DNA of 64,000 nt from Hexactinellida sp. DTS-2022 (Eukaryota; Porifera; Hexactinellida): contig JAPNXP010000015.1 of the NCBI GenBank assembly GCA_028753945.1, positions 372,001-436,000 on the forward strand, in the 5' to 3' direction. Positions 8,651 through 36,731 of the stretch are shown here, in pieces. Position numbers and translations under genes: made by a program. Position 1 is the stretch's first letter. Every line of letters begins with the position of its first letter. A model generated the notes under the pieces. That model had not been told where the DNA came from. It saw only the letters and a program-made list of their open reading frames with translations, and searched no databases.

Positions 8651-8847
8651 ATGAAAGTATTTCCTTTCACTACATTCCTGACTGGATGGAGTCACCATGT
8701 GCATCAGAAGAGGCGGCACACAAACAGATGCCACATTCCACTCAGTTCCACCACCTAGCTCTGCTATAAGATACGAGACACATTCTCTATAGCATTCTAA
8801 TAACAAACTACTTTCCTTTCAATAGCTAACTAGCAAATAATAACAAA
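8651..8847 (+). promoter_or_regulatory. Upstream region of NHL gene A, conserved with NHL gene B
   Basis: About 195 bp before the start codon are nearly identical to 30747-30956 before the second NHL gene. Shared words include AAAGTATTTCCTTTCACTAC, GACTGGATGGAGTCACCATG and a TATA-like CTGCTATAAGATACGAG about 75 bp upstream of the ATG. Conservation by recent duplication is certain. A promoter or 5' UTR role is inferred from position. Confidence 0.5.
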
Positions 8848-10065
8848 ATGGCCGTTCGATTCCCTGACCCGATACACCCCGTAGACCCTGTCGAGTTGGA
8901 AATACACCAACTGTTCGACCGCATAATTATGTGTGTCCAGCAGCGACGAGTGGCACTCATAACTACATACCGCGACACACGCGACCAAATAGCCGCTAGG
9001 CCCATAGCCCGCGCGCGAAAAGAAGAAGAACTGATCCGACTGAAAACCGAAACCGAGCGTCTCTTCCAAATGAACGAACTGAGAGAGACCCAGGAGCGAA
9101 TCCTAGCGGAACTAGAACAAGCGCTAGCAGAGGTGAGGGTACCCCAGCCCGAGACACGCGTGGTGTTCCGAGGCACCTGTGGACACCTGGAGCAGGTGAT
9201 CGCAGGTGTGGGAGAGGTAGTCGAGGAGGATGTACCCGTTGTACCCCGATATGAACAAATGAGACCGATTGTAGCTGTCGGGAAGATAGGAAATGCTCCT
9301 GGAGAGCTCTTGAATCCTCGTGGTGTCGCAATCGATGGGAACACAAATCTGATTTATGTCACAGAAGGGTTTGGTTCCTGTAGAGTCTCAATCTTCTCGG
9401 AGACAGGCGAATTCCTAAACACTTTCACGAACCAAGACATGAGAGAGCCACACGGTATTGCGATCCATCGAGACAACCTGTACGTGACGGACACAGGAGT
9501 ACACGCTGTGTTCCGATTCAAAATAGAGGCTGACATGCGTCTCGTCGCTAGCCTAGGGAATAAGGGATCTGGTGTGGGACAGTTCGATGACCCTTTCGGA
9601 CTCTCCGTCTCTACCAACGGAGATGTGTTCGTATCGGATTCTAACAACAACAGAATCCAAGTCCTAGATGACTCCCTACACTTCCAAAGATCCATAACGC
9701 TTGGGGCAATGTATTTCCCGTATGACATTAAACTGACACCAAATGAGGTGTACGTGCTAACTAGTGGATACATACACGTGTTAACCTACACAGGGGATAG
9801 GATACGCTCTTTCGTTACACAACCTGGTTATGGGGCATTTATCCTTGCTCCCTTCTTCTGTTTGGACGCACATCATAACATAATAGTCGGAGACTGGGAT
9901 ACTAATAATATCAGAATACTAACCAAAGAGGGCACACCCCTACACACCATACAGACACCAGAGGATGGAGGATACTTGTTGGGAATAGCTCTAACTAATA
10001 ATCTAAATATAGTAACTGTGTATAGCTATGTAGCTAACCAGCTAATAATATTCTCTAGCTACTAA
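8848..10065 (+). CDS. Coiled-coil plus NHL-repeat beta-propeller protein (copy A)
   Basis: An intronless gene of 405 aa. Residues ~10-110 are helical and charged, resembling the coiled coil that follows the B-box in TRIM-NHL proteins, but no RING or B-box cysteines precede it. Residues ~145-405 form NHL/six-bladed propeller repeats, with recurring P-x-G-[IVL]-x-[IV] and [IV]-Y-V-[TA]-[DE] strand motifs (GVAIDG, LYVTD, VFVSDSNNNRIQV, NIRILTKEG). NHL propellers in TRIM-NHL proteins bind RNA or proteins, so the ligand here is unknown. There is no signal peptide or membrane segment, so a cytoplasmic location is likely. Copy B at 30957-32171 is a close paralogue with a matching upstream region. 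The coiled coil is almost unchanged between the copies, while the propeller differs at many loop positions. Confidence 0.85.
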   Translation: MAVRFPDPIHPVDPVELEIHQLFDRIIMCVQQRRVALITTYRDTRDQIAARPIARARKEEELIRLKTETERLFQMNELRETQERILAELEQALAEVRVPQPETRVVFRGTCGHLEQVIAGVGEVVEEDVPVVPRYEQMRPIVAVGKIGNAPGELLNPRGVAIDGNTNLIYVTEGFGSCRVSIFSETGEFLNTFTNQDMREPHGIAIHRDNLYVTDTGVHAVFRFKIEADMRLVASLGNKGSGVGQFDDPFGLSVSTNGDVFVSDSNNNRIQVLDDSLHFQRSITLGAMYFPYDIKLTPNEVYVLTSGYIHVLTYTGDRIRSFVTQPGYGAFILAPFFCLDAHHNIIVGDWDTNNIRILTKEGTPLHTIQTPEDGGYLLGIALTNNLNIVTVYSYVANQLIIFSSY

Positions 10066-10579: not shown

Positions 10580-11593
10580 TTATCCCATTATGTCGGATAA
10601 TATGTGTCTCCTTCCCCTTGAATCGATGCAGTAGCCGAGTATTGTCGTGTTTGGTGCTTTTGTTAATAGAGCTTTGGTAATGCTACAGTCCATTGGGTTC
10701 CCATTTAAATCGAGTAATTTCAGATGTTTAGGAAGTCCGTATTGAATTGGAAATTCTGTTAATTTGTTGAAACCTAAGTTTACTTCCTCGATTACCGGTA
10801 AGCCTTTGAATAGCTCATCGTTTGAGGATAAAATACTGTTTTTGAAGAGGTTTATTTGTTTTAGTTCTGTGTTGTTTGCGAATGTGTTGTTGTTTATGTT
10901 TGTTATTTTGTTGTTTGACAGGTTTACAATTCTCAATTTGTTGTTTGCCTGAAACTGGTTTGGGTTAAGTGTAAATATTCTGTTTTGCGATAAATCTAAT
11001 TTTGTTAAACTTTTGCAACTTTGGAAAGTTATTTCTGAAATAAGTTCAATTCTGTTGGATGAGAGATCGAGGTGCCTCAACTTGTCGAGTTCATAAAAGG
11101 TGTTTGGTGTCAGTTCCACTATTAAATTCCTGGCTGCGCCTAGATACGTCAATGCCTTCAGTCCAGTTAAATACAGGTCTGTCAAATCCGTTAGTTCGTT
11201 TCGTTCTAAGTTTAGAATTTCCAAATTTGAGAGGTTTTTAAATACGTTCTCTGGGAGAGATTCAAATCTGTTTCCTTTTAAACTCAAAGACTTGAGTTTA
11301 TTCAGACCAGCCAGGGCATTAGGCGGCAGAATTGGGTTTGTAAATTGATTCTGTATAACTATCTTTAAGTGTCGCAATTTCTCACACCTTTCCCAATTCG
11401 GTAGAGTGAGACATCTGTCAGTGCCTAATTTCTGTACAAATATAAGTTGCATTTCTTCATGTACTTTCTCCATACAATAATCTCTGAATTCTGAGTCCAA
11501 ATATTCTGTCTCGTTTGCCCAGAAAATCCCTTCCTTCATGCATTCGGCACTAACAACAAGCAACATTATTAAAACTATCCCAAGCATATCCAT
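10580..11593 (-). CDS. Secreted leucine-rich-repeat protein
   Basis: An intronless frame of 337 aa. The first ~18 residues (MDMLGIVLIMLLVVSAEC) are a typical signal peptide. From about residue 85 there are eight or more LRRs of about 24 residues with the LxxLxLxxNxL pattern (LKSLSLKGNRF, LEILNLERNEL, LRHLDLSSNRI, LTKLDLSQNRI, LRIVNLSNNKI), ending in a short capping segment with paired cysteines (NPMDCS, then GYCID). No transmembrane helix follows, so it should be secreted. Extracellular LRR proteins act in adhesion or recognition, and no specific orthologue can be named. The N-terminal part has four cysteines (ECM, DYCM, DRCL, ERCE) that could form an LRR N-cap. Confidence 0.85.
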   Translation of the reverse strand: MDMLGIVLIMLLVVSAECMKEGIFWANETEYLDSEFRDYCMEKVHEEMQLIFVQKLGTDRCLTLPNWERCEKLRHLKIVIQNQFTNPILPPNALAGLNKLKSLSLKGNRFESLPENVFKNLSNLEILNLERNELTDLTDLYLTGLKALTYLGAARNLIVELTPNTFYELDKLRHLDLSSNRIELISEITFQSCKSLTKLDLSQNRIFTLNPNQFQANNKLRIVNLSNNKITNINNNTFANNTELKQINLFKNSILSSNDELFKGLPVIEEVNLGFNKLTEFPIQYGLPKHLKLLDLNGNPMDCSITKALLTKAPNTTILGYCIDSRGRRHILSDIMG

Positions 11594-27300: not shown

Positions 27301-30300
27301 AGCACGAACACGGCTAACACGAATTTCCGGATAAGATGAACAAACAGTTCCACAAAATCAGGTCCCTACAATGGCTATTCAATGGGTATTACTCCGGTTA
27401 ATACGAACTCCGGATAAGCGAACACATTTTTACCGTCCGTTGGTGTTCATATTAACGAGGTTATACTGTAGTTAGTTCCTATTGGAACTAACACATATTC
27501 CTGTTAGAGATAGAAGCAGGAGTTCGAGTAGTGTCTCAGAAGTGGACAAGCCAGCTGTGAAGAGGAACAGTATTGTCACCTCAGATATAAAGTGGGTATT
27601 TCTATAATTAATGGGGATATTTGGTTGTTTGATAAATTATTTGTTTGTATTTAGGAAAAAAGATGACCAGGTTGTTATTAATTGCAATTGTAGCTAATCT
27701 GTGTTGTACATTTGTTTATTTATTGTTTACAAAATCAAAGGTGACACATCTCGAGAAGATGCAACAGCGAATGCAAAATAAGATATCCAAACAATGTGAG
27801 ATTAATAAACAAACAAACTAACAAACATACAAACTGACTAACTAACAAACAAACATACAAACTGACTAACTAACAAACAAACATACAAACTGACTAACAA
27901 ACAAACTAACATACAAACAAACAAACAAACAAACAAACTGACAAACAAACAAACAAACAAATAAACAAACAAACTAACAAACAAACTAACAAACAAACAA
28001 ACTAACAAACAAACAAACTAACATACAAAACTGACTAACTAACAGCTACGTAGTTGCATCATATACTATTTAGTGAAACAGGACCACAAGACCGAACAAG
28101 ATAAATTGAGAGCTAAAGTGGCTGTTCAAGAGGTGAGTGTACGAATTTGTATCCGTGAAGCGACAGAATATTCCTAGTGCTACCTGGGAGAGATTCCTCG
28201 CTTATCCATAGTCCACACTGTATTATTAACTCCGCCGTGAGCACTTTTAGCATAGGCGGTGCGGATTGTAAAATATATATTTTCTTGTGAATAGTCGAGT
28301 TTTGTTTGTTCTTGTTTATATTTCGCAGAATTAAGTCGATACAGGTGTCTCCATTTATATTCTTAGCATAGGGATATGCATTTCTAGTTAATAGCTCAGT
28401 TATTAATTCTGTATCCTTCGTGTTAATTGCTACATGTAAACAAGTGTTTGTCTCTTCATCCAAATTGTTTATTTGTACTTCCAAAAACTCGAAAACTATT
28501 TCTAGTTTATTTCTCCATTCAAACTCGACCAGTTTGCTGCTACGCTCATCAGCTATTCTATAATTAGATTTGGTACCAGAGCACATTTCTATTACCCTAT
28601 GGAGTATACTGTGCATCCCGTGCTTTGTAATGAGAGAATTGAGAATTTGTTTGCCTGTTGTTATATCCAGTGGAGTAAGGCCGTTTAGTAGAATTAGCAG
28701 ACAAGCTGCCCCAAGGGTATTTAAACTGTGACTATATTTGATCCTAAATCTCTCAATTGAAATACCAATAAAATTATCGAGAATATTCTCAAAGCATTTG
28801 ACACCATGTGTGCCACTTAACACCTCCATTTTATCCACATAAACACTCAACATGTCTTCGAAAGAGATATACATAGATTCTTCACAAATCAACAAGTTTA
28901 AGGCGCCATATAACCCTGCCACTCCAAATGTGTCGTATACACCTAACACGTCTTTAACCTCGTTCAACAATTCAATTTCCCTTAACGGAAATATTTCATT
29001 CATGAATTGTCCTTCTAATGGTAGCACCAAAGGAATGTAATCTGGGAGAAGTTTGCCTTTAAAAACCTCGTGTGAATAAACTAGGATAAACAGGTCACAT
29101 TTGTGTGCCATTAATTGTGCCATTGCCGACACATTCCATTCTATGTTGCCTAGATACCAACACCCATGCTTGACTGACAATGCAACTATTTTTAGCAACC
29201 GTTCCCTGTCTCTGATTTTACAAAGTTTGATAGTGAACAGTTCGAAAATATCTTTCACAGTTAAATCCACAGGAAATAATTCCTGTACGTTCCTAATTTC
29301 CATTTCTTCGCTTTTCTGTCGCACAAAGTATAGGGCTAGAGGTGTCAAGTTGTGTGGTAGGTTTCGGACAATTCGAGCGCCACTTTCTAAAATTAGTATC
29401 GCTGCATTTTTGGCGGCTAATCCTTCATTTTTCTCAATGTTTCCGATTGGAAAATATTTCTTGACAAGTGCCCATACGTTCGACACTTCTATTTCCTCTG
29501 GGTCTCTGCCCAGGCTTAGAATGTGGAGTGGCGTGTAACCGAGGGTGCGTGATGGTGTGTCTGTGTTCGCACCTTGTGAGAGGAGCCACTTTATTGTGTC
29601 CAAGTTGTCGCTTTCCTGGGATGGGTGGCAGTACAGCTGTTTAACACATAACCAGTGGAGTGGAGTCATGCCACCCAAATCTGAGGTGTTGTTAATGTCA
29701 TGAGGTGTGAAGTTGGGGATAACACCTATGAACAGTGATTGGTTAAATCTGAGCCAGTTGTCAGCCATATAATGTCTCATGGTTATTATTCTGTATTGGA
29801 TTGTAATACAATACTTGAGTTCGGGTTTGCTATTAATATTATTGGAGCTCTTTAATCTCTGTGATGTTATGTTTTCTAACTAATTTTATGTGTATTATTC
29901 TATTTATTCCTCTTGAGCAATTGGACCTGTTATGCAATGCTTCATAAGGGCCGTTCAAACGTTATATAAGTTAAACGCTTCCAAGGGATGAATTAACTAA
30001 TGTGTGACATCCTTTGTATATTACAAATTGGTCAGAAAAGCGTGAAGGGCCCAAAGTATATCTATATTTTATCAAACAATATTATTCTTAATAAAAGAAT
30101 ATTTGTTGTTGTTGTTTACTTGTAAGTATGACACCTAATCTAGGATAGAGAGAATGACATAAGAGTTCAGATGAGGAGATGGAAAGACAAGTGAGTTGTC
30201 CCATTATTGCTTGTTCCCAATTAAGTTAGATTGTGTACCTATTTATAATCTGTATATAGAACAGTTGATCCTATCTTATAATTCATTTTTAGGGAGCGAG

Positions 30301-30746: not shown

Positions 30747-30956
30747 GAAATGAAAGTATTTCCTTTCACTACATTCCTGACTGGATGGAGTCACCATGTG
30801 CATCAGAAGAGGCGGCACACAAACAGATGCCACATTCCACTCAGTTCCACCACCTAGCTCTGCTATAAGATACGAGACACATTCTCTATAGCATTCTACT
30901 AACAAACTACTTTCATTTCCATAGCACTAACTAGCTAACTAGCAAGTAATAATAAA
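30747..30956 (+). promoter_or_regulatory. Upstream region of NHL gene B, duplicate of 8651-8847
   Basis: Nearly identical to the region before NHL gene A, including the TATA-like CTGCTATAAGATACGAG, but with a short insertion near the start codon. The duplication boundary on the left is at about 30747, where similarity starts abruptly at AAATGAAAGTATTTCC. Confidence 0.5.
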
Positions 30957-32171
30957 ATGGCAGTTCGATTCCCTGACCCGATACACCCCGTAGACCCTGT
31001 CGAGTTGGAAATAAACCAACTGTTCGACCGCATAATTATGTGTGTCCAGCAGCGACGAGTGGCACTCATAACCACATACCGCGACACACGCGACCAAATA
31101 GCCGCTAGGCCCATAGAGCGCGCGCGAAAAGAAGAAGAACTGATCGCACTGAAAGCACATACCGAACAAAGTCTCCAAATGAACGAACTGAGAGAGACCC
31201 AGGAGCGAATCCTAGCGGAACTAGAACAAGCGCTAGCAGAGGTGAGGGTACCCCAGCCCGAGACACGCTTGGTGTTCCGAGGCACCTGTGGACACCTGGA
31301 GCAGGTGATCGCAGGTGTGGGAGAGGTAGTCGAGGAGGAGGTGCCCGTTGTACCCCGATATGAAGAAATGAGACCGATTGTAGCTGTCGGGAAGACAGGA
31401 CAAGCTCCTGGAGAGCTCTTGGATCCTTGTGGTGTCGCTATCGATGAGAACTCAAACCTAATTTATGTCGCAGAATTGGGTTCCTGTAGAGTCTCAATCT
31501 TCTCGGAGACCGGCGAATTCCTAAACACTTTCACAAACCAAGCCATGAGAGCGCCACACGGTATAGCGATCCATCGAGACAACCTGTACGTGACGGACAT
31601 AAAAGTACACGCTGTGTTCCGATTCAAAATAGAGGCTGACATGCGTCTCGTCGCTAGCCTAGGGAGTAAGGGATCTGGTGTGGGACAGTTCTATAGCCCT
31701 CTCGGACTCTCCGTCTCTACCAACGGAGATGTGTTCGTAGCAGATCATATCAACAACAGAATCCAAGTCCTAGATGACTCCCTACACTTCCAAAGATCCT
31801 TAACGCATCAGGCAATGCAATGCCCGCGTGACGTTAAACTGACACCAGATGAGGTGTACGTGCTAGCTCGTATATACATACACGTGTTAACCTACACAGG
31901 GGATAGGATACGCTATTTCGGTACGCAACCTGGGTATGAGGGATTTCTCTTTGTTCCTCTCTCCTTCTGTTTGGACGCACAGCAAAACATAATACTCAGA
32001 GACATGGCTACTAATAATATCAGAATACTAACCAAAGAGGGCACACCCCTACACACCATACAGAGACCAGGGGACAGAGGATTCTTGAGGGGAATAGCTC
32101 TAACTAATAATCTAAATATAGTAACTGTGTATAGAGGTGCAGCTAACCAACTAATAATATTATCTATCTAA
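30957..32171 (+). CDS. Coiled-coil plus NHL-repeat beta-propeller protein (copy B)
   Basis: An intronless gene of 404 aa with the same plan as copy A: a helical coiled coil to about residue 110, a linker with CGHLEQVIAGVGEV, then an NHL propeller to the end. By eye, the segment from about residue 255 to the end differs from copy A at about 40 codons that change the residue and only about 5 that do not. It also has one codon gained and, earlier, one lost. Changes cluster at corresponding places in successive blades (FDDPFG versus FYSPLG, SDSNNN versus ADHINN, TSGY versus ARIY, VGDWD versus LRDMA), which are loop positions. Strand cores such as NRIQVLDDSLHFQRS and IHVLTYTGDRIR are unchanged. 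The ligand is unknown. The frame is intact, so both copies are probably functional. Confidence 0.85.
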   Translation: MAVRFPDPIHPVDPVELEINQLFDRIIMCVQQRRVALITTYRDTRDQIAARPIERARKEEELIALKAHTEQSLQMNELRETQERILAELEQALAEVRVPQPETRLVFRGTCGHLEQVIAGVGEVVEEEVPVVPRYEEMRPIVAVGKTGQAPGELLDPCGVAIDENSNLIYVAELGSCRVSIFSETGEFLNTFTNQAMRAPHGIAIHRDNLYVTDIKVHAVFRFKIEADMRLVASLGSKGSGVGQFYSPLGLSVSTNGDVFVADHINNRIQVLDDSLHFQRSLTHQAMQCPRDVKLTPDEVYVLARIYIHVLTYTGDRIRYFGTQPGYEGFLFVPLSFCLDAQQNIILRDMATNNIRILTKEGTPLHTIQRPGDRGFLRGIALTNNLNIVTVYRGAANQLIILSI

Positions 32172-32651: not shown

Positions 32652-35600
32652 ATGGACCGTCCGATTATCCCCGTATCCCATTCCCACGAGGACCAAATAT
32701 ACAAAGTCCTCGGGAACGAATCCTCTCCACTCCTAGTTCTAATTTCTAACCGAGTCAGGTGTTCGCAGAACCTAACAGAAATGACGCACCCTAATGTAGT
32801 TGTCCCGGTTCTATACAAATATGAGTCCAGTCTTGATATGATCCTAGGTATGGTGACCCAAGCGCTTAACGGGAAAAGAGCAGCCAGCATAGCTCTTATT
32901 TGCCCGGGCAGAAAAGGGGTTATTAATATTTGCAGTCAGAAAGAGTTAACTCTTGAGTCAGTGAAGACTGGAGAAATTAAATACTTTTTCACACATTTAG
33001 TTGGGGACCATATGGACTCTAATAATGAACAGAAAAGATTGGATATCCTTGGTTCGCCTGTAGCGGAATGTTTAGAAGGAATCCAGTTATTAGAAATTCT
33101 AGAACACACCCTCAAAGTTGAGGTATTCTCCTCGAGCAGTTTTTACGGACAGGAACTTAATTTCTGCATCAAAGGGGATGAGTATGTTATGCCTATCAGC
33201 TATTTCTATTTCGATAGTAACAAACTAAAAGAATGGCAGGGGTTAGTACCGCCAAGTCTTGAAATGTTTGAGAAAATCCGGACAGTCGGTCGAGGCACAT
33301 TTGGTGCTGCTGTCTTATACAGAAGAAAAGGGGACAACATGTTTGTTGTTCTTAAAGAGATATCCATGGTTGATCTCCATGAAAAGGAGAAGGACTTAGT
33401 TAGGTCGGAAGTTAGTATACTTAGCATGCTAGAACATCCCAATATAATAACGTACTACGACAACTTCTATCTAGATGATGGGAGTCTCATTATTGAGATG
33501 GAATATGCTGATGCCGGCACTTTAGCTCAATACATACAGAAAAGAGAAATCCCGATCCCGGAGCACCAAATCCTGTACATGTTCCATCAAATGTCCCAGG
33601 CTGTTGGCTACATTCATTCTAGAAAAATCTTACACAGAGACTTGAAAACTGCTAACATATTCCTCACGCGAGAAGAGACAGTAAAACTCGGCGATTTCGG
33701 GATTTCTAAAGTTATGGATTCCACGCAACAAAACGCACAAACTACCTTAGGCACTCCGCATTATATTTCCCCTGAAATTTGTGAGGGAAAACCTTATAAC
33801 GCCAAGAGCGATATATGGGCCCTGGGTTGCATTTTGCATGAAATGGCTGAACTTAAGAAACCGTTTGATGGCACAAACCTTCCAGCTTTGATCAAGAAAA
33901 TCGTAGACGGGACTTATGAATTGATAAAGGGTAACTATAGCAACGGGTTAAGGCAATTGGCATTGGAAATGCTTCATAAGGACCCGGACAAGCGACCGTC
34001 TAGCACCCAAATAGTTCAGGAATTCCTTCCTAACCTATTGGAGTCCATGCAAGAGCGAATGCAAATGGAAGCTAGTAAACACAACAACAAAACGTATCTC
34101 TATAAATTCAGTAGTTCTAAGCTCTCAACTCATCCCATCGGTCTCCCAGAGGGGGTTAAAGTGGACCAGGTGTCCGTGGGGTTCAGTCACATGGGTCTTA
34201 TCACGACCGAGAAACAGGTGTTAACCTGGGGCTCCGGTACAAGGGGACAATTGGGTCACGGTCACACCGGCTCATTCATGGAGCCGACACAAATCCAGTT
34301 TAACAAGGACGCCTGTATAGTTAATATCCAATGCGGGAAGGACTTCACTTTGTTCCTTAACGAAACCGGAATAACTTTATCCTGCGGGGCCTGGGACCAG
34401 TTCTGCATTGGGAAGCGAGCTGAATCGGATGTGCACCTCCCGACTATAGTGGACGGTCTGGTGACCTGTCAAGTGGTGCAGCTGTCCTGTGGCGAGCTCC
34501 ACGCGATGGGGGTCACCTCTGAGGGAGAGGTGTTTGGGTGGGGGGTCGGCAGGGACGGGAGACTGGGGACCGGAACTGAAACCAACTGTCTGGTTCCTAA
34601 AGAGATTGTGGTCATGTCAGCTGACAATGTTAAAGAGAGCATCAAGCAGGTCGAGTGTGGCCTGGATGGCACCATGTTCCTCACTACTTCTCACACCCTG
34701 TACGCATGTGGCAGCAATAGGAATAATAAGCTGGGTCTAAACAAGAAACCGACCATGCTCATGACAATGCGGCTATTCACGAAGGAACAGAAAATGTTAG
34801 TCGAACGGAGTTTGCTGCCCACGCCTGTGAAGGTGTTGATTAAACACATGGTTCTAGATGTGTCGCTTGGTGCCACGCACTCTGTTGTCCTGGTGGATAA
34901 CGGGAAGGTGTTGGCGTTCGGTCGGAAGAAGGAGGGGCAGAGGGGCTTGGAGAAAGCTAAGATTTCGGAGGGTGACAATAAAGATGTGTCGTATATCCCT
35001 GTAACAGGTGGCAGTATTGTGGCTTGTTGCGAGTTCATGACGATTGTCGCGTGCGAGGACCACTCGATGCAAGTGGCAGGGTCCCGACAGTTCTTCCAGC
35101 TGCCCCTTGAGAAGTACCTAGAGCTGAGAGCGGACCAGAATACGGACTCGGTCCCGCCCCCCCTGTCCCCCACACCGGATGTGACGGTCTCACACTCAAT
35201 TCAGTCGCGAGAGTTCATAAGAGGTGTCAGAAAGTTGTCGCAATCCGGGAACAAATTCCTGAGTATCCTAGACCTCTCGCAGGATCCCAATACTAAGCTG
35301 GTGTATCTGGATCTGCTTAAGAACTGTCTCAAGCAGCTATACATAGAACCTGAGTCTGAGAAAGGGCGGAAGAGACACAACTCGGTTCTGCCAGTCGACA
35401 CGCGAGTGGTCGGGTCTCTAACGAGTGTCCCATTCCTCCTGGAGGGGTGCGAGCTCAACCAATCGGAGTACGTTATAAAGCAGATATCATGTTTCGGGAG
35501 TAATGTGGTTATCCTAGTTGAGAGCGCCGGTTATAAGGAGTCCGCGTATAACGAGAACATTAAGCGCATATTCGGTTGGAAACAGAACCGACCCTCTACA

Positions 35601-36731
35601 TCCAGTCATAGAAGAGTGCCCCCCTCCTACTCGCCCCTCCCCCCCCTGGCCCCTGTGGAGCAGACCGCTAAGCGGACCGATATGTTCCTATCGGACGAGT
35701 TGACAATAGCCCCCTGGCTTCAGAACGAAATGTCCATCCCTAGTCCACCCTGGCATCCTAATATTGTGCAGCCTAATGCTCTCAAACATTCCTATAACGA
35801 GGTGTCGTATCCAAGGGCCGACAGAAAGGGGTCAGCCCCTGTACTAGGGGACTCGAATGGGGGTGTGGCCCTAGAATCGATGCGCTTGGTTAACCAGAGA
35901 AAGAAGAGTTACCAGCCAGTAGAGGATAACCCGAACTTACGTCACACGCCTTATAACAACCTGACCGTGTCACATTCCATAGACGGATTTGTGGAGAGTA
36001 GGAAGCAGGTGGCCCAAAGCAGGGAGCACCTAATTGGAATCCTAACGCGTCGATCTATCGAGAAGCAGCCTATACAGGTCCTGCCGATACCGGTTGATAA
36101 GAGCACACACGTGCTACAGAATAACTCTATAGCGATGGCTCCTTTGAAACCACAATCTGAAGATTCCGAATCCGGACCCAGGAACCTGGCCCCCCGGCCC
36201 AACAAGCCACGGAAAAGATCATCAACTAACGAGGCGAAGCGACTCAAAGAGGAAAACCTGAGTTTTCAACAGCGGTACTTAGAACTGGAGGATAAAATGA
36301 AGATTATAGAGAGACAGAAAGTTGAGAAGAGTATCGAGCTCGAAAAACAGATTCAACAGTTGGAACACGATCTCTACGACACTATAAATAGGGGCGAAGA
36401 CATGAAGATCGAGAGCGAGAAGAGTGTCAACCTTTTGCGGATTGAGCACCAAAAGGACATACTTAGGCTCCAATCCGATCTCCAGAGAGAGAAGTCGGAT
36501 AATTTGGACAAAAGTAACGAAATCAGTGTTCTCAAATACGATATTGAAGCGGCCAATGATTCGATAGAAAGACTCTTGAAGCCCAATGGCATGTTCCCCT
36601 CTAGGAGCAGGAGGAGGACACTTGACACCTCCCATTCCTCCCCCCCTTGTACCCCTTCAGCCTCCTCTGCCCCCCCAACACCTACCAACACTGGGAACTT
36701 TACCAGAAGTGGAATATGCAGTGTCATGTGA
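32652..36731 (+). CDS. NEK8/NEK9-like kinase with N-terminal DUF4347-like domain and RCC1 repeats
   Basis: A single exon of 1359 aa. Residues ~26-175 resemble DUF4347 (LLVLISNRV then [11 protein letters not shown]), a domain I recall before the kinase in some invertebrate NEK9 proteins; this call is tentative. The kinase runs ~205-467: glycine loop VGRGTFG, Lys235 in [14 protein letters not shown] with Asp330, DFG at 348-350, and SPE. Next, about residues 500-850 hold RCC1 repeats ([43 protein letters not shown]). The tail is Pro/Ser-rich and disordered, then a predicted coiled coil at ~1195-1320. NEK8 and NEK9 share kinase plus RCC1 and act at centrosomes, spindle and cilia (family knowledge). 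The long tail and coiled coil favour NEK9 over NEK8. A 4-kb intronless gene stands out beside the multi-exon neighbours. Confidence 0.87.

Follow-up and report, generated by a model that had tools for sequence, protein, structure and literature searches.

Diversified recognition repertoires are known on immunoglobulin, LRR, B30.2 and lectin scaffolds. The B30.2 repertoires of the finTRIM/TRIM5 type are expanded TRIM-like families of vertebrates, with selected C-terminal recognition loops and a RING domain, and PRDM9 and the KRAB zinc fingers, which bind DNA, carry hypervariable contact codons within a homogenised repeat framework. The gene family described below resembles the former in its expansion and in its selected C-terminal residues, although these are placed on an NHL instead of a B30.2 scaffold, and resembles the latter in the pattern of its contact codons, although in another fold and role.

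Two further systems are of direct relevance. WD40 is a known scaffold of diversified recognition in the NWD/HNWD genes of Podospora anserina (het-d, het-e and het-r; ten family members), as described in the available portions of PMC1805685 and PMC2873952. According to the former, the selected codons are 7 and 9, located around the conserved codon 8 (d-a loop), together with 25 and 27 (b-c turn), and the repeats evolve in concert. The second system comprises the TRIM-NHL proteins (TRIM71/LIN41, Brat, Mei-P26 and TRIM2/3) and Thin, which have a C-terminal NHL propeller. The accessible part of PMC5908797 names ten residues of TRIM71/LIN41 as RNA contacts, reports that most RNA-contact residues are identical between the LIN41 domains of different species, and states that LIN41 binds via a basic cavity.

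The window analyzed in this study is a stretch of 64,000 nucleotides (bases 372001-436000 of contig C7), taken from a host genome of 112.4 Mb in 18 contigs. The genome is probably that of an animal and has an NK2-like homeobox, as judged by eye. The best of three matches to an AbdB-like homeodomain reached 52% identity, and Xenoturbella bocki, which possesses Hox genes, was dropped as the host for this reason. A sponge was considered as well; a pattern for the silicatein-type active site occurred at one place only, with the sequence CGSCYAF, which is the form of a cysteine protease. It contains two genes of the same layout, each with a C-terminal NHL propeller, as in the TRIM-NHL proteins and Thin. 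The features referred to below are as follows (window coordinates):

30957..32171, plus strand: W_A, the focal gene; single open frame of 404 aa, Pfam NHL 55.4 bits (cut-off 20)
8848..10065, plus strand: W_B, the paralogue; single open frame of 405 aa, 84% identity to W_A, NHL 65.4 bits
30957..31376, plus strand: conserved N-terminal third of W_A (residues 1-140); purifying selection, with omegas of 0.54 (type 1 genes) and 0.47 (type 2 genes)
31377..32168, plus strand: NHL propeller of W_A (residues 141-404), six blades by motif register, bearing the diversified positions
31419..31481, plus strand: blade 1, variable codons 155, 156 and 158 (around P157), 174 and 175 (after E173)
31551..31604, plus strand: blade 2, variable codons 199 and 201 (around P200), 215 and 216 (after D214)
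31692..31751, plus strand: blade 3, variable codons 246, 247 and 249 (around P248), 264 and 265 (after D263)
31818..31874, plus strand: blade 4, variable codons 288, 289 and 291 (around P290), 305 and 306
31950..32009, plus strand: blade 5, variable codons 332, 333 and 335 (around P334), 350 and 351 (after D349)
32082..32138, plus strand: blade 6, variable codons 376 and 378 (around L377, which takes the place of P), 393 and 394

A Pfam scan of W_A and W_B (E up to 1) revealed no RING, B-box, NACHT, TIR or death domain, so that the output pathway is not visible in these proteins, and WD40 was absent from their Pfam matches. Since RING and B-box are missing, W_A is by definition not a TRIM protein (RBCC class VII). 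No TRIM coiled-coil family was matched in either protein by Pfam, and a crude test of helical periodicity gave no support for such a structure. A membrane span is unlikely, because no window of 19 residues exceeds a hydropathy of 1.4. When a profile of 30 family sequences was compared with solved structures, the best matches were the NHL domains of Drosophila Thin, TRIM71, TRIM2/3, Brat and Mei-P26; blade 3 of W_A is the one that this profile aligns to the blades of TRIM71.

In the frame adjoining W_A downstream (32652-36731; 1359 aa), RCC1 repeats, which form another propeller, are encoded together with a protein kinase and a DUF4347-like stretch. Between W_B and W_A, the minus strand carries an LRR protein in a single frame (10580-11593) and a protein with ankyrin repeats (28113-29780).

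Protein searches with four queries against the host genome, when merged, revealed at least 377 separate places of the family (partial copies counted; places were taken as separate if more than 1.5 kb apart, and all counts are lower bounds), 340 of which are free of internal stops. The search with W_A alone gave at least 107 matches, and three queries from other subfamilies gave at least 102, 100 and 103. The proposal of a large variable NHL repertoire, made from the window alone, is supported.

The distribution of these places suggests that they cluster near chromosome ends. Excluding contig C1, 215 of 262 lie within the outer 20% at either end of a contig, versus 40% expected from length; with C1 included the figure is 245 of 373 (four places on C9 and C18 are left out of this count). 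The median distance between nearest neighbours is 12 kb. C1 itself carries 111 places, most of which, as judged by eye, are in its right half.

The original prediction had been based on a comparison by eye of W_A with W_B, in which about 40 residue-changing and about five silent differences were noticed from residue 255 onwards. Codon alignment gave very similar numbers, 38 nonsynonymous and 5 synonymous differences (pN 0.139, pS 0.054, ratio 2.75; one-sided Fisher p = 0.009) from alignment column 255 to the end, a region that was picked post hoc, after inspection. For columns 130-235 the estimate of about 13 versus 6 was exact, with a pN/pS of 0.82; the ratio is 0.66 in columns 1-129 and 1.45 over the entire gene (p = 0.09). 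The pair by itself is suggestive of an excess of amino-acid-changing differences, and this excess becomes firm when the codons of the family are compared.

For this comparison we gathered 62 genes, i.e. W_A, W_B and 60 regions from the matches of the W_A search. Four of them (L028, L050, L065 and L067) were truncated, contained a stop or lacked the usual start, and the remaining 58 were aligned and sorted by their C-terminal motif into 24 type 1 genes (including W_A and W_B) and 25 type 2 genes; nine fitted neither motif and were excluded from the class tests.

The N-terminal part is conserved in both types, with a dN/dS of 0.52 (type 1) and 0.54 (type 2) for residues 1-124, and pN exceeds pS there in just 19 of 276 and 14 of 300 pairs, respectively. 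In the propeller the values for residues 141-254, 255-300 and 301-404 are 1.51, 2.07 and 1.71 in type 1, where pN is greater than pS in 239, 254 and 252 of the 276 pairs, and 1.44, 1.03 and 0.89 in type 2 (256, 176 and 113 of 300 pairs). A ratio below 1 across the propeller, which would have spoken against diversifying selection, was thus not found in type 1, and in type 2 it is confined to residues 301-404. As a yardstick for type 1, the 75 bases 5' of the start codon differ by 9.1%, which is near the type 1 pS of 8.0%. Pooling of 29 closest pairs, chosen greedily from all 58 genes, gave only 1.14 for the whole propeller and 0.98 for residues 255 to the end, and the nonsynonymous excess is therefore an effect of particular sites.

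In order to locate these sites, the RNA contacts of TRIM71 were placed by hand on the family alignment with the chain 8j72, as far as they are given in the available text of PMC5908797 (chain number + 587 = human number; the offset was fitted on the first pair of contacts and the other eight were then matched by residue identity). With reference to the motifs xxPxG and ADxxN, the contacts fall into four classes: (i) P-1 (R608, R655, Y702 and R796), (ii) P+1 (R751), (iii) D+1 (R625 and K672), and (iv) D+2 (D673, R720 and R814). Four classes in six blades define 24 positions of the family propeller, which are referred to below as contact positions.

These positions are by far the most variable of the propeller. 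Their mean entropy in type 1 is 2.24 bits, compared with 0.42 at the 234 other propeller positions (those outside the four classes and P-2; rank-sum p = 5e-16), and in type 2 it is 2.24 versus 0.31 bits. Averaged over the six blades, entropy has its maxima at P-1, P+1, D+1 and D+2, and the P and D places are conserved, as anticipated by the observation that differences sit at matching places in successive blades. When the set of 24 positions was shifted by 1-12 residues, its mean entropy of 2.24 bits fell to 1.2 bits or less.

Nonsynonymous changes are concentrated at the same positions. Counting gave a contact pN/pS of 3.96 in type 1 and 2.83 in type 2. The corresponding ratios are 1.17 and 0.70 for the remaining propeller codons, and residues 1-140 have 0.57 and 0.58; in type 2 the excess is thus limited to the contact positions. 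For blades 1-3 only, the contact ratio rises to 7.5 (type 1) and 4.7 (type 2), and the other residues of these blades have 0.89 and 0.71. Codon likelihood, for which fixed trees were derived from the non-contact codons and each site class was assigned its own omega, gave contact omegas of 17.8 (blades 1-3) and 10.9 (blades 4-6) in type 1, and 18.9 and 11.3 in type 2, compared with 1.33, 1.57, 0.94 and 0.69 elsewhere in the propeller for the same four blade sets. Forcing the contact omega to 1 caused a loss in 2dlnL of 391, 325, 481 and 355. The recombination present in the family may inflate these tree-based omegas; the pairwise counts and the third-base test described below are tree-free. The diversifying selection that had been postulated is borne out by these values, together with the predominance of pN over pS throughout the type 1 propeller.

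At a threshold of 0.9, a site-by-site grid posterior of our own making singled out 24 of the 30 class positions in type 1 (counting P-2), besides 40 of the 234 remaining propeller positions and 2 of the 140 N-terminal ones; the type 2 figures are 21, 8 and 2, respectively. The class positions that fail the test (6 of 30 and 9 of 30) include a few in blades 2, 4 and 6. The selected set of type 1 is therefore wider than the four classes, since 40 of the 234 other sites pass. A scatter of variable sites through the propeller core, which would likewise have spoken against the first interpretation, was not found, as seen from the loss of signal upon shifting of the set, although these 40 additional type 1 sites show that the confinement is incomplete.

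The pattern recurs outside the two types. In a second subfamily (five genes, none of them among the matches of the W_A search) contact pN/pS is 5.48 versus 0.42, and 22 of 24 contact columns vary versus 58 of 245 others. A third subfamily of four genes is a weak replicate, with 1.81 versus 0.42 and varying columns 18 of 24 versus 42 of 249. All 49 type 1 and type 2 genes have distinct strings of contact residues, pairs of which differ at 1 to 24 of the 24 places (median 18).

Such a distribution might also arise from mutation aimed at certain codons (DGR-like or deaminase-based), with no selection on amino acids. Bases 1 and 2 of the contact codons are highly variable and base 3 is near-fixed at most positions, which resembles NN-fixed randomisation. 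However, where the third base of a contact codon departs from the common one, it does so mainly when the residue is altered (TGG, CAA, AAG): 55 departures are replacing and 20 silent in type 1, and 82 and 16 in type 2 (these tallies count sequences, not independent events). The proportions are reversed in the rest of the propeller (163 silent and 106 replacing in type 1; 203 and 62 in type 2) and in residues 1-140 (108 and 29; 128 and 51), and the share of silent opportunity is 0.70-0.71 at contact codons versus 0.74-0.76 elsewhere. The third-base changes of contact codons mostly replace the residue, which indicates that it is the protein that is under selection; mutation directed at the first two codon positions does not explain the pattern, and we rejected DGR-like or codon-targeted hypermutation on the basis of this test. 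Inspection by eye revealed no sign of an adenine template at the contact codons, whose commonest third base differs from position to position (any of T, C, G and A), and the combination typical of DGR targets (codons templated by adenine, third base unmutated) was not found in the type 1 and type 2 genes. We consider this explanation very improbable.

Even less credible is an origin of the pattern in relaxed constraint, or in block conversion from divergent donors, without positive selection. Recombination between copies is indeed well supported (see below) and some copies are broken, but relaxation predicts a ratio near 1, in contrast to the 2.8-4.0 obtained by counting and 11-19 by likelihood at contact positions, and would be difficult to reconcile with the lack of an internal stop in 340 of 377 places (partial copies counted). 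Donor blocks, in turn, would carry silent changes too.

The residues found at the contact positions bear on what the propeller may bind. Compared with the expectation from codon bases, Trp is enriched (5.3%, expected 1.9) and Lys depleted (1.1%, expected 3.5), and Tyr (12.1%, expected 9.0), Gly (11.0, expected 10.2), Arg (10.2, expected 9.8) and Ser (9.1, expected 9.7) are the other residues tallied. The net charge of the contact positions ranges from -3 to +4 per gene, with a median of 0. One reading of the family is an RNA-recognition repertoire, in which each member would bind and repress a different RNA (transposon, viral or endogenous) via the face used by TRIM71 and Brat. The variable positions correspond to the RNA-contact classes of TRIM71 derived from the available text on that protein, and the nearest solved NHL domains include the RNA binders TRIM71 and Brat, besides Thin and TRIM2/3. 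The cavity of LIN41, as described in the same source, is basic, whereas the family has few Lys residues at these positions, Arg at the expected level, enriched Trp and a median charge of 0. The abundance of Trp and Tyr at the contacts, together with the scarcity of Lys, leans against a common basic RNA groove; a groove like that of LIN41, shared across the family, appears unlikely from this composition, and we regard the RNA repertoire as a whole as an unlikely reading. The family may instead bind varied protein, peptide or glycan ligands, or may read RNA bases in the manner of Brat.

The family copies also share sequences upstream of their coding regions, and some of the genes are mosaic. The features concerned are:

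30754..30899, plus strand: upstream module of W_A, 146 bp (putative promoter/5' leader); homology between copies begins abruptly at its left edge
8655..8799, plus strand: copy of the module upstream of W_B (C7:380655-380799), 100% identical over 145 bp
31860..31865, plus strand: chimaera boundary at residues 302/303, inside blade 4; types 1 and 2 are near-identical to the left and deeply diverged to the right

Of 40 scored copies of the module (77 first-look candidates, on several contigs), 22 are 100% identical over 146 bp and 39 are located 41-62 bp 5' of a family gene, a count that drew on 54 of the 107 places found with W_A. One copy (C5:5234833-5234978, minus strand) has none of the family places used here behind it, and the gene was possibly lost or is unlisted. 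When cut at fixed offsets, the stretch from -210 to -76 differs on average by 5.4% between type 1 genes.

Types 1 and 2 have in common a 5' homology that begins sharply approx. 210 bp ahead of the start codon: the 5' flank adjoining the gene matches in 575 of 600 cross-type pairs, with a median identity of 93.9%. The adjoining 3' flanks match in 75 of 276 type 1 pairs, 3 of 300 type 2 pairs and none of the 600 cross pairs. The sharp common 5' edge prompted us to consider a mobile cassette, but the 3' edges are mostly not common to the copies.

In blocks of 25 codons, silent divergence between the types lies at 0.02-0.26 as far as residue 300 and at 0.35-0.63 beyond it. The type label changes nine times on a tree of residues 1-300 and once on a tree of residues 301-404. 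Moreover, the compatibility of neighbouring informative sites was reached by only 1 of 500 shuffled sets in type 1, and by none of 500 both in its N-terminal part and in type 2; in the joint set of both types (residues 1-300) compatibility did not decay with distance (311 of 500 shuffles did not exceed the value observed). Exchange of sequence between family copies is well supported by these comparisons, and it appears to homogenise the framework outside the contact positions. Conversion from variant donors had been named as an alternative source of the differences; the exchange itself stands, but since it seems to make the framework more uniform, it cannot alone yield the nonsynonymous excess.

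The silent divergence of type 1 is itself uneven, ranging from 0.015 to 0.20 per 25-codon block (residues 26-50, 51-75 and 201-275 of W_A), and may reflect hot spots of conversion or silent constraint.

The family has much in common with the NWD genes of Podospora, as far as these are described in the text available to us: both have a beta-propeller with four selected codons per blade and concerted evolution between members, and the top face, which is diversified in Podospora, is also the predicted place of variation in the NHL family. Two traits of HNWD-type genes were found in the NHL family, namely positively selected residues in the d-a loop and the b-c turn of every blade, and concerted evolution, here in the form of exchange between copies within one genome. 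The same source describes the Podospora genes as ten members that combine WD40 with NACHT, with repeats up to identical within a gene, whereas the NHL family has at least 377 places and blades that are divergent within a gene, and neither NACHT nor WD40 was found in W_A and W_B. The family does not belong to HNWD, yet appears to follow the same geometrical way of working. From the TRIM-NHL proteins it differs in its hundreds of copies and hypervariable contact residues, and W_A and W_B differ from them in lacking RING and B-box. No description of a diversified NHL repertoire was found in the open-access full-text literature, among the matches listed.

As judged from the codons, the close relatives have a near-fixed framework in which approx. 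four residues per blade, located where TRIM71/LIN41 binds RNA, have been driven apart between genes by selection on amino acids, and the copies exchange sequence. Could such divergence serve adaptors for many endogenous targets (e.g. in scaffolding or degradation) that arose by duplication and then diverged through subfunctionalisation? The TRIM-NHL relatives act on endogenous targets, and duplicates often diverge in specificity. Nevertheless, contact omegas of 11-19 over 49 genes, with a like pattern in other subfamilies, appear to exceed what is usual for subfunctionalisation, and we find this origin rather improbable.

W_A is part of an NHL-propeller family of very large size, whose single-frame proteins are presumably cytosolic, and we believe that this family probably constitutes a germline-encoded repertoire recognising varied non-self ligands. 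The approx. 24 variable residues would form a single binding site on the top face, so that each gene would have its own specificity. Their location on one face, which had been predicted, agrees with the fall of these positions into the contact classes of TRIM71 and rests on blade-register homology to that protein. The conserved N-terminal part may join chains, or may couple binding to one common output, the common upstream module would drive the copies alike, and exchange between copies would keep the framework uniform. Likely ligands would be molecules of pathogens or symbionts, or products of another individual. Such a repertoire may serve allorecognition, RNA sensing or immunity, as had been suggested from the window alone. 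In its build the repertoire would be like the fungal HNWD WD40 allorecognition proteins, presumably by convergence, on an NHL propeller instead.

A broader picture can be offered only tentatively: an early-branching animal may use several hundred intracellular NHL propellers, every one with a binding face of its own, for anticipatory germline-encoded recognition, renewed by gene conversion between clusters near chromosome ends, as an animal counterpart of fungal HNWD that possibly discriminates self from non-self, or microbes. If an NHL propeller varies at the residues with which TRIM71 holds RNA, the list of known recognition scaffolds would grow by one, and fungi and an animal would seem to have reached the same solution, four residues per blade, independently. 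The near-fixed framework, with approx. 24 main varying positions, would make the family a practical test bed for ligand discovery and for work on a binding code.
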